Assembly (NCBI GenBank): GCA_016871675.1
Contig: VHCN01000030.1
Span: 1-37,888, forward strand
Length of the DNA stretch: 37,888 bases
Source: Verrucomicrobiota bacterium
Lineage (GTDB): Bacteria; Verrucomicrobiota; Verrucomicrobiia; Limisphaerales; VHCN01
Direction of reading: 5' to 3'
This document shows positions 14,169 through 23,163 of this stretch, piece after piece (within the stretch, counting starts at the first letter, position 1; every line of letters begins with the position of its first letter). Below the pieces are notes generated by a model. The model was given only the letters and a program-made list of their open reading frames with translations, searched no databases and had not been told where the DNA came from. The translations under genes were made by a program, and so were the position numbers.

Positions 14169-15869
14169 TCAAGGAGGAGCGAGCCTGCTGGTCCTTACCG
14201 GCGCTGTCTCGACTTGTGGACCTTCCGCGCCAGCCGAAAGGACAATGTTCTTCAACCATGCCGTGTCATTCGATTGCGGGAAGTCGGATCGGTAGTGCGC
14301 GCCGCGGCTTTCCTCGCGCAGCAATGCACTTCGCGCGATCAGTTCCGAGGCGGTCAGCAGGTTGTGCAAGTCGAGCGCCTGCTGCCACGCGAGGTTGAAT
14401 GCGCGCGGGCCGGGCACACGGAGCTGCTCCACACGGGCTCGCAGCGCGGCAAGTCCCTCGAGCGCCGCGCGCAACCCGGCGCCGCTCCGGATGATGCCCG
14501 CCTTCTCCCACATCAACTTTCCGAGCTCATCGCGAAGCGCGAAGGGGCCTTCGGATTGTCGATTGAGGATTGAGGATTGGGGATTGAGGATCTTCCCGGC
14601 GGCGGCAACCGCCACGTCCACCTGCGCGGTTTCGATGTCACCGTGGCTTTGACCTTTCACCCACCGCGCCGCGGCTTCGCCCGCGCGCGCGCCGAACACC
14701 GTGCTCTCAGCCACGCCGTTGCCGCCGAGCCGGTTCGCGCCGTGGACGCCCGCGGCGTCCTCGCCCGCGGCGAACAGTCCGGCGAGGTTCGTGAAGCCGT
14801 CGCGGTTGATGCGCACGCCGCCCATGTTGAAGTGCGCCGTCGGCGCGACCTCGATGCGCTCGCGCGCGAGGTCCACGCCGAGGCGCAGGCACCGCTCGCG
14901 CATCCCGGCGAAGTTCGTCTCGACGAACTCCGCGCCCAGATGCGCCACGTCAATCCACACCGCGCCGTTCGCCGTGCCGCGGCCCTCGGCAATCTCGGTG
15001 AAGCACTCGCGCGACACGCGGTCGCGCGTGCTGCGCTCCTTGCGCCCGGGATCCGCGCGCTCCATGAAGCGCTCGCCGCGTCCGTTGAAGAGATGCGCGC
15101 CCGCGCCGCGCAAGCCTTCCTCGAGCAGCGCGCCGTTGAGCCGCGAGCCGGGCACGACCATCCCGGTCGGGTGGAACTGCACCATCTCCATGTCCATCAG
15201 GTGCGCGCCGGCGCGGAAAGCCGCTGCGAGGCCATCGCAGGTCTTTTCCTGCGCGCACGCGGCGCGTTGATACATGAGCGGCCCGGCGCCGGTGGCGAGC
15301 AGCACGGCCCTGGCGCGGACCGCGATGAACTCGCCGCTGCGCTGGTCGAGCAGCACCGCGCCACAGACGCGCGACCCGCCGGCGGAGGTGAGCAGTTCGA
15401 GCGCGCGCGTTTCTTCAAGACACGGGATTCCAAGCGCGAGCACCTGGTCGCGCAGGCGCGCCATGATTTCGATGCCGGTCAGGTCGCCGACGTGGACGGT
15501 GCGGTCGAAGGTCTGCGCCGCGAAGGCCTTTTGGTGGATGCGGCCGTCCGGCGCGCGGTCGAAGAGGCAGCCGATTTTGTTTTCCAGCTCGAGCACGACG
15601 CGCGGCGCGTCCTCGCAAAGCGTCCACGCGAGTTCCTGGTCGTTGAGGAAGCCGCCGCCGCGCACGGTGTCCTCGAAGTGCGCCTGCACGGAGTCGCGCG
15701 CGTCGAGGACGGCGTTGTAGCCGCCCTGCACCATGCGCGTGCAGCCGGACTTGCCGAGCAGTCCCTTGCTCACAAGCAGGATGCCGAGCGACGGGTCGAG
15801 CCAGCGCGCGTGCAGCGCGGCCATCAGCCCCGCGCCGCCGGTGCCGAGGATGAGCAGGTCGGTCGTCAT
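14169..15869 (-). CDS. frdA: Fumarate reductase/succinate dehydrogenase flavoprotein subunit
   Basis: A 566-residue flavoprotein interconverting succinate and fumarate. FAD-binding GTGGAG is at 9-14. The catalytic set is complete: His233 (FHPTG), Arg282 (RDRVS), His346 (AHFNMGG) and Arg380 (HGANRLGGN). The position that carries the FAD-linking His in SdhA/FrdA is Cys43 here, so flavin is probably not covalently bound, as in NadB or methanogen TfrA. The ATG at 15869 overlaps the frdB stop (ATGA). Residues 427-439 are encoded by an in-frame heptamer array. NadB was considered, but pairing with FrdB rules it out. Confidence 0.9.
   Translation of the reverse strand: MTTDLLILGTGGAGLMAALHARWLDPSLGILLVSKGLLGKSGCTRMVQGGYNAVLDARDSVQAHFEDTVRGGGFLNDQELAWTLCEDAPRVVLELENKIGCLFDRAPDGRIHQKAFAAQTFDRTVHVGDLTGIEIMARLRDQVLALGIPCLEETRALELLTSAGGSRVCGAVLLDQRSGEFIAVRARAVLLATGAGPLMYQRAACAQEKTCDGLAAAFRAGAHLMDMEMVQFHPTGMVVPGSRLNGALLEEGLRGAGAHLFNGRGERFMERADPGRKERSTRDRVSRECFTEIAEGRGTANGAVWIDVAHLGAEFVETNFAGMRERCLRLGVDLARERIEVAPTAHFNMGGVRINRDGFTNLAGLFAAGEDAAGVHGANRLGGNGVAESTVFGARAGEAAARWVKGQSHGDIETAQVDVAVAAAGKILNPQSSILNRQSEGPFALRDELGKLMWEKAGIIRSGAGLRAALEGLAALRARVEQLRVPGPRAFNLAWQQALDLHNLLTASELIARSALLREESRGAHYRSDFPQSNDTAWLKNIVLSAGAEGPQVETAPVRTSRLAPP
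14554..14592. repeat. Heptamer array GATTGAG inside frdA
   Basis: Five and a half tandem heptamers are visible: GATTGTC, GATTGAG, GATTGAG, GATTGGG, GATTGAG, GATC. The block is 39 bases, exactly 13 codons, so frdA stays in frame and gains ILNPQSSILNRQS at residues 427-439. The site lies between the capping/FAD domains and the C-terminal helical domain, where a loop should be tolerated. Confidence 0.85.
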
Positions 15870-16603
15870 TGCGCCGCCGCCTTGCCAAGCAATCTGGCCA
15901 GCCAGCGCCGCACCTGGGCGCCGAGCGCCAGCCGCTTCAGCCGCTCGATGGACTGCGTGGGCGAGATGCCGCGCGGACACGTCTCGCGGCAGTTGCCGAG
16001 CGTGTGGCAGCGGAACGCGCCGTCCTCGCCCGCGACTCGGGCGAGCCGTTCCTGCTTCGCACCGTCGCGCGGGTCCACGAGCAGCGAGAGGGCGCGGTTC
16101 AGCGCCATGGGCCCGAGGTAACGCGGGTTCATCGTGACGAGCGAGCAAGCGGACCAGCACGCGCCGCAGTCAATGCACTGTGGCTGGTGGTTGAGCGCCT
16201 GCCACTCCGCGGAGTCGTGCGGCAGACGATGGAAGTCCTCCAAATCTGCGCGCGGGTGGAAGTGCGGGAGCGAGCGTTGATACGCATCGAAGAACGGCGT
16301 CATGTCGGCCGCGAGGTCGCGCACGACGGGCAGGTTGCGGAGCGGTTCGACGCGGAGTTCGTTCCCGATGGTCCGCACGAGCGCGGCGCAGGCGAGGCGT
16401 TCGCGGCCGTTCACGACCACCGCGCACGAGCCGCACATGCCGACGCGGCAGGAGTAGCGGAACGCAAGGTCCGGCGCGGACTGGCGCTGCACGGCGAGGA
16501 GCGCGTCCAGCACGCTGGCTTGTCCGCCGACCTCGACTTCGTGCCGCTCGAACCGCGGCGCGCCCCCGCCCGTGCGGCGCAGGTGAAGCGTGACGGCGGG
16601 CAT
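15866..16603 (-). CDS. frdB: Fumarate reductase/succinate dehydrogenase iron-sulfur subunit
   Basis: A 245-residue electron-transfer subunit. The N-terminal 2Fe-2S domain has Cys52, Cys57, Cys60 and Cys72. The C-terminal domain binds two further clusters: Cys143, Cys146, Cys149 with Cys153, and Cys199, Cys205, Cys209. The set matches SdhB/FrdB. It precedes frdA with a four-base overlap. No sdhC/sdhD membrane subunit lies on either side, and no CCG (heterodisulfide-type) domain as in TfrB is present. How it exchanges electrons with a quinone or a soluble carrier is unclear. Confidence 0.92.
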   Translation of the reverse strand: MPAVTLHLRRTGGGAPRFERHEVEVGGQASVLDALLAVQRQSAPDLAFRYSCRVGMCGSCAVVVNGRERLACAALVRTIGNELRVEPLRNLPVVRDLAADMTPFFDAYQRSLPHFHPRADLEDFHRLPHDSAEWQALNHQPQCIDCGACWSACSLVTMNPRYLGPMALNRALSLLVDPRDGAKQERLARVAGEDGAFRCHTLGNCRETCPRGISPTQSIERLKRLALGAQVRRWLARLLGKAAAQ

Positions 16604-17308: not shown

Positions 17309-18235
17309 ATGAACATTTCCCGGATTCTCTCCGCGTGCGGCGTCGCCGTCTCGCTCGCCGCGCCGCTCCAAGCCGCCGATGACTATCAACTCGGCGAGGA
17401 TTCGAAGCCCCAAGCCGGCGTGCCGCAAGGCGCGGTCGAGAAGTTCTCGTTCAAGGCGAGCAAGATTTTTCCCGGCACGGAGCGCGACGGGTGGGTTTAT
17501 GTCCCGAAGCAATACGACGCGGCGAAACCCGCGTGCCTGATGGTGTTCCAGGACGGCGCGGGCTACATGGGCACCAACGGCCAGTTCCGCGCGACGGTGG
17601 TGATGGACAACCTCATCGCGAAAAAGGAAATGCCCGTGACCCTCGGCGTGTTCATCCAGCCCGGCACGGTGCCGGCGGCCGAGGCGGGGCAGAAGGCGCG
17701 CAGCAACCGAAGCTACGAATACGACTCGCTCGGCGACGCCTACGCGCGCTTCCTCATCGAGGAGCTGCTGCCCGGGGTGGAGAAGAAGTGGAACGTGACG
17801 AAGGATCCCGCGGGCCGCTGCGCCGTGGGCATCAGCTCGGGCGGCATCTGCGCGTTCACGGTGGCGTGGGAGCGGCCGGAGTCGTTCGGCAAGGTCATCA
17901 GCCACATCGGCAGCTTCACGAACATCCGCGGCGGGCACGCGTATCCATCGCTCATCCGCAAGTCCGCCGGCCCGCCGCCGCGCGACCTGTCCGACACGGA
18001 CAAGGCGCGCTGGGACGCGCGCAAGAAACTGCGGGTGTTCCTGCAGGACGGCTCGAACGACCTGGACAACCTGCACGGCAACTGGCCGCTGGCCAACCAG
18101 GACATGGCCGCGGCGTTGAAGTGGGCGAAATACGATTCTGATTTCAAGCTCGGCGACGGCGGCCACAGCGGCAGGCACGGCGGGTCAATCCTGCCGGACA
18201 CGATGCGCTGGATGTGGCGGGACCACGCGAAGTGA
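17309..18235 (+). CDS. Secreted esterase (enterochelin esterase-like alpha/beta hydrolase)
   Basis: A 308-residue exported hydrolase of the esterase D/Fes-like alpha/beta fold. A signal peptide ends near ALA-type QAA (residues 21-23). The nucleophile elbow GISSGG is at 174-179 (Ser176), acidic residues DLD at 251-253 and His286 or His290 (GGHSGRHGG) complete a plausible triad. Many relatives in this phylum are annotated as esterase or gluconolactonase and may act on plant cell-wall esters, but the substrate is unknown here. The gene directly downstream is a paralogue over its whole length, so this is a tandem duplication. Confidence 0.85.
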   Translation: MNISRILSACGVAVSLAAPLQAADDYQLGEDSKPQAGVPQGAVEKFSFKASKIFPGTERDGWVYVPKQYDAAKPACLMVFQDGAGYMGTNGQFRATVVMDNLIAKKEMPVTLGVFIQPGTVPAAEAGQKARSNRSYEYDSLGDAYARFLIEELLPGVEKKWNVTKDPAGRCAVGISSGGICAFTVAWERPESFGKVISHIGSFTNIRGGHAYPSLIRKSAGPPPRDLSDTDKARWDARKKLRVFLQDGSNDLDNLHGNWPLANQDMAAALKWAKYDSDFKLGDGGHSGRHGGSILPDTMRWMWRDHAK

Positions 18236-18247
18236 TGCCGGCGCGCA

Positions 18248-18386
18248 AATGACGAATGACGAAATCCGAATGACGAAAGAAGCCCGAAGCCCAATTTTCA
18301 AAATGAACCCCCACTCACTCGCTCGCCGTATCGTGTCGTTCGTGCTTCGCCATTCCTTCGCCATTCCGACTTCGTCATTCGTCCTT
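18248..18386. repeat. Inverted heptamer repeat spanning the second esterase start
   Basis: The left arm (18248-18289) reads as heptamers AATGACG, AATGACG, AAATCCG, AATGACG, AAAGAAG, CCCGAAG. The right arm (about 18341-18386) is the approximate reverse complement, with CGCCATT, CCGACTT, CGTCATT, CGTCCTT. About 30 bases pair with few mismatches. The ATG at 18303 lies in the loop. The left arm follows the upstream stop by 12 bases; the right arm is translated as the signal-peptide core of the next protein. Confidence 0.85.
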
Positions 18387-20174
18387 GCGGGCTTTGCCGC
18401 CTCCGCCGCCGATGACTTCAAACCCACGCCGGACCATCAGTTCAATCCGGCCGTCCCGCACGGGCGCGTGATCGAGCACAAGGACTGGCAGAGCAAGGTG
18501 TTCACCAACACCATTCGCGACTGGTGGGTTTACGTGCCGGCGCAATACTCCGCCGACAAGCCCGCGAGCGTGATGGTCTTTCAGGACGGCCGCGGCTACG
18601 CCTCGACCAACGGCCCGTGGCGCGCGCCCATCGTCTTCGACAACCTCATCGCGCGCGGCGAGATGCCCGTGACCATCGGCATCTTCATCCAGCCCGGCGA
18701 CAACCGCGCGCCCGGCACGCCGCCGCGCAAGGACAAGTCCGGCAAGGCCGCCGGCGCGAGCAACCGCAGCTTCGAATACGATTCGCTCGGCGACCGTTAC
18801 GCGCGGATGCTCGTCGAGGAAATCCTGCCCGAGGTGGAGAAGGACTTCCGTCTGTCGAAAAATCCAGATGACCGCGCGATTTGCGGGGCGTCCAGCGGCG
18901 GCATCTGCGCGTTCACGGTGGCGTGGGAGCGGCCGGACCAGTTCCGCAAGGTGCTCTCGACCATCGGCAGCTTCGTGCATCTGCGCGGCGGATTCGATTA
19001 CCAGGCGCTCATCCGAAAGACCGAGCGCAAGCCGTTGCGTGTGTATCTCGCGGACACGAGCGGCGACCTGGACAATCCCTTCGGCCACTGGCCGACGGCG
19101 AACCGGGCGATGCACGCGTCGCTCAAATACATGGGCTACGACGTGAAGTTCGAATGGGCCGAGGGCTACGGCCACAATCCGAACCACGGCGGCAGCCACT
19201 TCCCCGACGCGCTCCGCTGGCTCTGGCGCAAAGAAACGCACAAGCCGGAAATCAACACGAAGCAGGACCTCGGCGGCGACATGACGCTGCACCGCCTGCT
19301 CGTCGAGGGCGAAGGCTGGCGCGTGGTCGCCGACAACATTGCGTTTGCTGACGGCCTCACGCCGGACGCGGAGGGCAACCTGTGGTTTGCCGAGATGCGC
19401 TCGACGCCGCCCGCGGTGTGGAAGGTCTCGCCGGGCGGCGCGAAGACGAAGATGATCGAAGGCACGTCTTGCAGCGGGCTCAAGTTCGGTCCCGACGGCA
19501 GACTCTACGCCTGCGTCGGCAAGGACAAGCAGCTCGTGTCGTTCGAACTGCCGTCGGGCAAGAAGACCGTCGTGGCCGAGGACGTGCAGCCCAACGACCT
19601 TGTCGTTTCGCACAAGGGCCACATCTACTTCACCGAGACGGGCAAGAAGCAGGTCACGTTCGTCAACGCGAAGACGGGCGAGAAGCGCGCCGCCGACACG
19701 GGCATCACCGCGCCCAACGGCATCACGCTCTCGCCCGACCAGGGGACGCTCGCGGTGAGCGATTACCGCGGGCAGTTCACGTGGGTCTTCCGGATCGAGG
19801 CGGACGGCTCGCTGTCGGCGAAGGAGCCTTACATGACCATGCGCATGCCGGTTGACCCGAAGGGCGAGTGGAAGTTCAACGAACCGCCGCCGAAAAGCGC
19901 CGCGAGCGCCGGTGACGGCATGGTGAGCGACAGCCTCGGCCGCTACTACGTGACCAGCGCGCTCGGCGTGCAGGTGTTCGACCCGACGGGCCGCATGTGC
20001 GGCGTGCTGCCGAATCCCGGCGACAAAGGAATGACGAGCGTCACGATCGCGGGCGACAAGCTCGAATGGCTCTACGTGGCCTGCGGCGACAGGATTTTCC
20101 GCCGCAAGGTGCAGGCGACCGGAAATCTCTTCTTCAAATCACCCGTCGCCGAGGCGCCGGCGAAGAAGAAGTAG
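18303..20174 (+). CDS. Secreted esterase fused to SMP-30/gluconolactonase domain
   Basis: A 623-residue exported two-domain protein. Residues about 40-315 are an esterase closely similar to the upstream gene, with nucleophile elbow GASSGG (195-200, Ser197), DLD near 255-257 and a His-rich GYGHNPNHGG near 288-297. Residues about 335-615 form an SMP-30/gluconolactonase-like beta-propeller. The start is taken at ATG 18303; an open frame back to 18249 only translates repeat DNA (MTNDEIRMTK). The signal peptide (residues 1-36) is largely encoded by the right arm of the repeat. The two activities could act in turn on a sugar ester and a lactone, but that is inference. Confidence 0.83.
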   Translation: MNPHSLARRIVSFVLRHSFAIPTSSFVLAGFAASAADDFKPTPDHQFNPAVPHGRVIEHKDWQSKVFTNTIRDWWVYVPAQYSADKPASVMVFQDGRGYASTNGPWRAPIVFDNLIARGEMPVTIGIFIQPGDNRAPGTPPRKDKSGKAAGASNRSFEYDSLGDRYARMLVEEILPEVEKDFRLSKNPDDRAICGASSGGICAFTVAWERPDQFRKVLSTIGSFVHLRGGFDYQALIRKTERKPLRVYLADTSGDLDNPFGHWPTANRAMHASLKYMGYDVKFEWAEGYGHNPNHGGSHFPDALRWLWRKETHKPEINTKQDLGGDMTLHRLLVEGEGWRVVADNIAFADGLTPDAEGNLWFAEMRSTPPAVWKVSPGGAKTKMIEGTSCSGLKFGPDGRLYACVGKDKQLVSFELPSGKKTVVAEDVQPNDLVVSHKGHIYFTETGKKQVTFVNAKTGEKRAADTGITAPNGITLSPDQGTLAVSDYRGQFTWVFRIEADGSLSAKEPYMTMRMPVDPKGEWKFNEPPPKSAASAGDGMVSDSLGRYYVTSALGVQVFDPTGRMCGVLPNPGDKGMTSVTIAGDKLEWLYVACGDRIFRRKVQATGNLFFKSPVAEAPAKKK

Positions 20175-22227: not shown

Positions 22228-23091
22228 ATGCCCGACCCGCTGCGCATCCGGAGGATGACTTCACAGGATGTGGGTTTTGGGATGGAACTCTGCGCGCTCG
22301 CGGGGTGGAACCAGACTCGGGACGACTGGATGAACTTGTTGCGTTGCGCCCAGGACGGCTGCTTCGTCGCCGAGTGGGAAGGCAAACCGGCAGGCACAGT
22401 CACGACGACGCGCTACGGCACCGACCTCGCGTGGATTGGCATGATGCTGGTGCATCCGTCGCAAAGGCGACAGGGCATCGGCCGCGCACTGATGCTCCAC
22501 GCCCTTTCCCGCCTCCACGAACGTGGTGTGCGCTGCATCAAACTCGACGCCACGCCGGCCGGCCGGCCGCTCTATGAGAAGCTCGGTTTCCAAACGGAAT
22601 GGACGTTTACCCGGTGTGTTCACGCGCGGCTCCCAGTGGTTGAGCCTCCTGCCAACTGCAAAGTCCGAAAGCTGCTGCCGTCAAGCTACGAGCCAGTTCA
22701 AGCCCTCGACTTGAAGGCGTTCGGAGCTGACAGGTTTTTCTTGGTGCGACGGATGCAGGACTTGGTGTCGCGCTCCCTTGTTGGCGCCACGATGAAGGCA
22801 CGCGTGAACAGTTTCGGCTTCGTCCGAAGGGGGACCATTGCGTCCTATCTCGGGCCGATCGTTGCCGGGTCGCTTCCCGCCGCGGCGCCGGTGATCAAGT
22901 CCCTGCTGAACCCTCTCCAAGGTCGGGCTGTCCTTTGGGACATTCCCGACGCGCAGACAGGCGCGATCGAGTTCGCGAAGCGACTCGGCTTCGAGCCCGC
23001 GCGGCAGCTCACGCGAATGTTCCTCGGCGAAAACCTCTGTCCCGGCGTTCCGCGGATGATCTTTGCCCTCGCCGGCCCGGAGATTGGATGA
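22228..23091 (+). CDS. GNAT-family N-acetyltransferase, two-domain
   Basis: A 287-residue protein. Residues 1-130 are a GNAT fold with the acetyl-CoA loop RRQGIGRAL at 80-88 and the closing LYEKLGFQ near 115-122. Residues about 160-287 look like a second, degenerate GNAT-type domain ([17 protein letters not shown] near the end), as in proteins joining Acetyltransf_1 with Acetyltransf_18. The acceptor is unknown. The stop codon abuts and shares a base with the inverted repeat at 23091. It is divergent from trpG. Confidence 0.82.
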
Positions 23092-23163
23092 ACCACGAAG
23101 ACACAAAGACACGAAGCGAAGGCGTTCTTCTTCGTGTCTTCGTGTCTTCGTGCCTTGGTGGTT
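23091..23163. repeat. Long inverted octamer repeat after the GNAT gene
   Basis: The left arm (23091-23116) contains GAAGACACAAAGACACGAAG; the right arm (23130-23163) reads TTCGTGTC, TTCGTGTC, TTCGTGCC, TTGGTGGT. The arms pair over about 26 bases with one extra unit on the right. It would form a strong hairpin between two same-strand genes and may act as a transcription stop or a REP-like element. A relative occurs near 3283-3301. Confidence 0.85.

Follow-up and report, generated by a model that had tools for sequence, protein, structure and literature searches.

Introduction

In Yersinia, the YPAL/RU-2 MITE contributes to the signal peptide predicted for YPO1552, whose relatives carry unrelated signal peptides (Delihas 2007; PMC2759123, PMC2229807). 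Rickettsia palindromic elements (RPE; Ogata 2000) are likewise read within Rickettsia proteins (PMC2229807), and REP elements of the GTAG/CGTC kind have been reported in Verrucomicrobia, namely in Opitutus terrae (PMC3733652). A literature search on the heptamer family described here, and on heptamer repeats in Verrucomicrobia, found no paper. We analyzed a stretch of 37,888 nt from a Verrucomicrobiota bacterium (hereafter, the window), in which one arm of an inverted heptamer repeat is read as most of the hydrophobic core of a predicted signal peptide. As in the case of YPO1552, the repeat lies in the leader and relatives of the protein carry unrelated leaders. The relevant features of the locus are as follows.

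17309..18235, + strand: esterase-only paralogue that lacks the repeat and has an ordinary signal peptide (leader MNISRILSACGVAVSLAAPLQA, cut before ADDYQ)
18248..18290, + strand: left arm of the palindrome, made of (ATGACGA)n-type heptamers and containing the in-frame ATGs 18249 and 18270
18291..18343, + strand: inter-arm loop, with ATG 18303 and GTG 18333 inside
18303..20174, + strand: fusion of a putative esterase (PF00756) and an SGL/gluconolactonase propeller (PF08450), predicted to be exported; in-frame ATGs upstream at 18249 and 18270
18303..18407, + strand: predicted signal peptide MNPHSLARRIVSFVLRHSFAIPTSSFVLAGFAASA (home-made scoring), with cleavage predicted after ASA to leave a mature protein that begins ADDFKP
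18344..18386, + strand: right arm, (TCGTCAT)n type, translated as LRHSFAIPTSSFVL, which closes the n-region and forms most of the hydrophobic core

Results

The repeat and the leader of the fusion esterase

Each arm of the inverted repeat is 43 nt long; the arms are 81% complementary, lie 53 nt apart and consist of heptamer arrays, (ATGACGA)n on the left followed by (TCGTCAT)n on the right. Seven near-matches (at most one mismatch) to AATGACGAA fall within the 139 nt of the repeat, compared with a maximum of three in any 139-nt stretch of 200 Markov-shuffled windows, so that the clustering far exceeds chance. The predicted RNA fold has an energy of -61.2 kcal/mol (z = -5.7), which none of 200 shuffles equaled. 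A scan of positions 18100-18500 for promoters and terminators found none.

Read from ATG 18303, the precursor of the fusion protein is MNPHSLARRIVS-FVLRHSFAIPTSSFVL-AGFAASA, followed after the predicted cut by ADDFKP; the middle block, FVLRHSFAIPTSSFVL, is the right arm and corresponds to residues 13-28, and past AGFAASA the sequence continues as ADDFKPTPDHQF. These results agree with the original prediction in its inverted heptamer repeat (right arm placed at about 18341-18386), in the translation of that arm as signal-peptide residues 13 to 28 or so, and in the ordinary signal peptide of the neighboring paralogue. The predicted position of the start codon in the loop holds insofar as ATG 18303 lies between the arms, but four other in-frame candidates precede the hydrophobic core, namely ATG 18249, ATG 18270, GTG 18333 and GTG 18342, the last of which extends one base from the loop into the right arm. 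The core is included from every candidate start up to GTG 18342, and the next in-frame start past the arm, GTG 18468, is within the conserved region. We infer from the sequence that the fusion protein is translated, exported and cleaved from this leader.

Other arrays were seen in the window. At 23089-23160, a palindromic array of an octamer, GACACGAA and then TTCGTGTC, has a different unit and a similar layout; it directly precedes the start of an amine-oxidase-like gene (ATG ~23177). A GGATTGA heptamer array (14553-14591, 5.6 copies) lies in frame inside the gene for an SdhA/fumarate reductase flavoprotein (14169-16160, minus strand), where its translation, ILNPQSSILNRQS, separates the FAD domain from the C-terminal domain.

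To be regarded as a Sec signal peptide, a leader had to have a positive n-region, an uncharged hydrophobic core of at least 8 residues and small residues at -3/-1; scores were computed on a simple home-made scale from the uncharged hydrophobic stretch and the -3/-1 residues. By these measures the window leader, with ASA before ADD, qualifies as a Sec signal peptide and scores 31.8 on the home-made scale, within the range of the ordinary leaders of orthologues (24.6-48.1). It keeps a proline in its core, and most orthologue leaders are more hydrophobic. In the right arm, now degenerate, the core is uncharged only in the frame that the gene uses; the remaining two score 0. When composition-shuffled arms were placed on the unchanged cleavage region, 20% scored as high as the window leader, indicating that the repeat allows a leader to form without being particularly suited to it; the ease with which shuffled arms yield a leader makes recruitment believable and, in its sequence demands, unremarkable. 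The window leader and those found in two other genomes (G002 and G119, see below) fit a core from which arginine and histidine have been lost. This loss was considered as a mark of adaptation and rejected as proof of selection, because the left arm read in the same way scores 30.2, against 31.8, and because of the 20% of shuffles that match.

Orthologous leaders and the age of the duplication

The comparison drew on the N-termini of ~50 esterases, taken from 58 genomes of the order as well as from named records of Verrucomicrobiota and Opitutia. In nearly all of them an ordinary hydrophobic leader, for example, MLHRLILLGALLALPAVRAADDFKPT (G002) or MRLKSWITAATMALSLPAMAADEFKPT (G024), precedes a common mature start (AADDFKPT...), which the orthologues share with the fusion esterase; none has a repeat-made leader or heptamers. 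A common mature start behind unrelated, repeat-free ordinary leaders suggests that the export signal was replaced in the window lineage, and among the sequences compared the predicted repeat-made leader of this esterase is confined to that lineage.

This comparison of orthologues had been proposed as a check of the original prediction, and the repeat-free orthologues do not carry the N-terminus of the window protein. The suggestion that the repeat had rebuilt the export signal is thus upheld, the arm supplying the hydrophobic core in place of the unrelated leaders of the orthologues. Its proposed link with gene duplication fared differently. In a tree of 27 esterase domains, the fusion esterase falls into a 99/99 clade with orthologues from several families, all repeat-free, while its neighboring paralogue branches outside this clade; the duplication hence predates the repeat and was rejected as the trigger of the leader replacement.

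A dispersed family of palindromic heptamer elements

Genomes were searched for two GAATGACGAA units within 20 nt of each other, with the reversed pattern as control. Among 320 genomes of the order it was present in 55, representing 33 of 118 genera, with up to 139 matches per genome, against a single match of the control across all 320; in an evenly drawn phylum-wide sample it occurred in 19 of 387 genomes. In the loci that were fetched, 85 unique elements are ordered left arm to right arm, with a median loop of 48 nt, and the opposite order was seen only in five neighboring pairs, as expected of adjacent elements. The median arm identity across the 85 elements is 0.83 (0.82 for the window element). 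Since palindromy is common to the family wherever its members are located, the hairpin is a family property and not a feature of the esterase gene. Paired inverted arms and a total size of mostly ~90-200 nt agree with the terminal inverted repeats and the ~100-200 bp of MITEs. The genomes are draft assemblies, in which palindromes are open to misassembly.

The window genome holds few copies. Besides the one at the esterase locus, a copy on contig C32 sits between oppA-like and oppB-like genes, and another is found on contig C1 (L019 1864-1886; G000:C1:132348-132387), where an arm contains the ATG of a 322-aa ORF (MTKETPNPKFDE...), so that left arms may supply start codons. The repeat noted at the esterase locus is real, and it belongs to a dispersed element that appears to have been recruited repeatedly; we infer that insertion or spread, not local expansion, brought the element to this site. 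A RAYT/Y1 transposase was considered as the mobilizer and rejected: no Y1_Tnp (PF01797) was detected in the window genome (96.9% complete), and only 3 of the 28 Y1_Tnp loci looked at in five further genomes have an arm within ~1.5 kb, so that the regular linkage of REP elements with RAYT is not seen.

Long pure tandem heptamer arrays of about a dozen or more units were observed in some genomes (G220:C2:41794-41922; G134:C134:7314-7400; L142 2981-3101 in G019), in contrast to the short paired arms found elsewhere.

Arms as N-termini of downstream genes

As seven is not divisible by three, a TCGTCAT array gives the same hydrophobic, stop-free heptapeptide in every frame: pure (TCGTCAT)n translates as FVIRHSS (SSFVIRH...) in all three frames, whereas pure (ATGACGA)n translates as MTNDE*R, stop included, in all three. 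An open array extends the downstream gene whatever its frame, so that right arms easily become the N-terminus of the next gene, and, given the order left arm to right arm, the outward-facing arm is always open on either side of an element. Of 266 outward arms examined, 121 precede a coding ORF of 150 aa or more (ORFs being called by length and third-position GC only), and in 88 of the 121 the frame is open into the arm. Only seven of these 88 open arms, in five genomes, make up part or all of the core of a plausible Sec leader.

The proteins with candidate repeat-made leaders are the window esterase, a PSCyt protein of G002, sulfatases of G017 and G144, and three paralogues of G119. For those of G002, G017 and G119, relatives with ordinary leaders were found. 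The G002 PSCyt1/PSCyt2/PSD1 protein has the leader MKARAILVSSFVIGHSSFGAADG, as against MKLVLTLLTALLLGPLAAVHTAEP in an orthologue of 84-89% identity, and a further ordinary-leader orthologue (78% identity) is encoded in the window genome itself. Homologues of the G017 sulfatase, too, have ordinary leaders in place of the repeat-made one; the candidate leader in G144 belongs to a second sulfatase. The G119 paralogues, a family without a Pfam match, belong to a two-gene unit with an upstream gene ending in ...YRKP. Three copies of the unit have the element and the repeat-made leader, and in a fourth the element is absent and the leader is ordinary, making it a near-natural control for leader replacement. 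In the mature protein the second and third copies are only ~41-44% identical to the first, and the arm is present in all three, which suggests retention, although exchange between copies could also account for it.

In addition, the prepilin leaders of a T2SSG, a T2SSJ and an N_methyl protein (L129 3067-3543 and 4621-5427; L199 3245-4054) are read from arms, and to judge from their sequences these three pilin-type leaders look repeat-made. High-scoring arms at L138 and L240 were rejected, since a normal leader begins downstream or the ORF is doubtful. In one of the three G119 paralogues (L147 3023-3077; G119:C14), two 14-nt units set the body of the protein out of frame with the upstream ATG (MTRPGNPK...). 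A change in unit number would shift the frame and could disable the leader, so that phase variation of export is conceivable; the frame break may also be an assembly error.

Discussion

The explanation that we consider probable is that a dispersed heptamer element lies between the esterase genes and that its right arm replaced the start and core of a Sec leader, with the cleavage region kept. A copy of the palindromic element would have come to sit between the two genes, and the right arm would then have supplanted the beginning of the old signal peptide together with its hydrophobic core, the original cleavage region (AGFAASA before ADDFKP) being retained. Later changes in the used frame (R to P and an H position to T) would have stripped the charge to leave the uncharged stretch FAIPTSSFVLAGFAA. 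A wider proposal is possible but remains tentative: in Verrucomicrobiota the family would be a constant supply of export leaders that works in any frame and is repeatedly selected into Sec and prepilin leaders, and repeat number might switch the export frame.

The hairpin could instead act at the RNA level, controlling how the fusion gene is translated or how stable its mRNA is, with coding incidental. The highly stable fold is in keeping with this, as are the ~12 unpaired nucleotides ahead of ATG 18303, which is itself paired, and the effects of enterobacterial and neisserial MITEs on mRNA (PMC2229807). However, no Shine-Dalgarno-like site was seen near ATG 18303, and the whole family is palindromic at any location. 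As the main account of the repeat we judge this unlikely, but an RNA-level role is compatible with the coding role and does not exclude it. Less likely still is that the repeat is an untranslated or N-terminal read-through spacer, with the start at GTG 18468 or later or with the export signal lost. GTG codons do occur downstream of the arm, and several arm-adjoining genes in other genomes have an obvious start past it. Yet between the arm and GTG 18468 there is no start codon, and initiation at GTG 18468 would delete ADDFKPTPDHQFNP, the conserved N-terminus of the mature protein. Leaders are present in nearly all orthologues, and a retained AGFAASA cleavage region would be hard to explain if the core were missing. 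We give least credence to chance local slippage on an existing leader with no mobile element involved: heptamer number is clearly variable in relatives, with the long pure arrays of G019, G220 and G134, but in element-rich relatives the paired arms recur at dozens of unrelated sites in each genome, and the left arm falls outside any leader.

The replacement of the leader by the arm of a dispersed element would offer a traceable route along which a non-coding repeat turns into a functioning piece of conserved enzymes; orthologues and copies within the same genome serve as natural controls. The repeat has apparently been so used in at least four other genomes, which suggests that junk-like DNA can repeatedly replace a functional part of a protein. 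FVIRHSS-like N-termini in verrucomicrobial annotations are repeat-derived and may represent either real leaders or wrong start calls.

Like the REP elements of the GTAG/CGTC kind, the heptamer elements are short dispersed palindromes, chiefly intergenic and patchy across related genomes; they differ in their longer modular arms (~30-55 nt), their ~48-nt loop and the lack of a regular Y1/RAYT transposase. With RPE they share the in-frame translation of dispersed palindromic elements in conserved protein genes, but RPE are tolerated inserts of 105-146 bp, whereas the heptamer arm takes over a functional part, the predicted export signal. The closest precedent is that of Yersinia, where RU-2 offers a single open frame of 56 residues, in contrast to a heptamer array that reads alike in all frames. 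Compared with YPO1552, the cases described here involve mostly conserved enzyme or cytochrome-type families and span five genomes and four protein families. What appears to be new relative to the Yersinia case is thus a different element, its frame-independent reading and several probable recruitments in predicted exported proteins.
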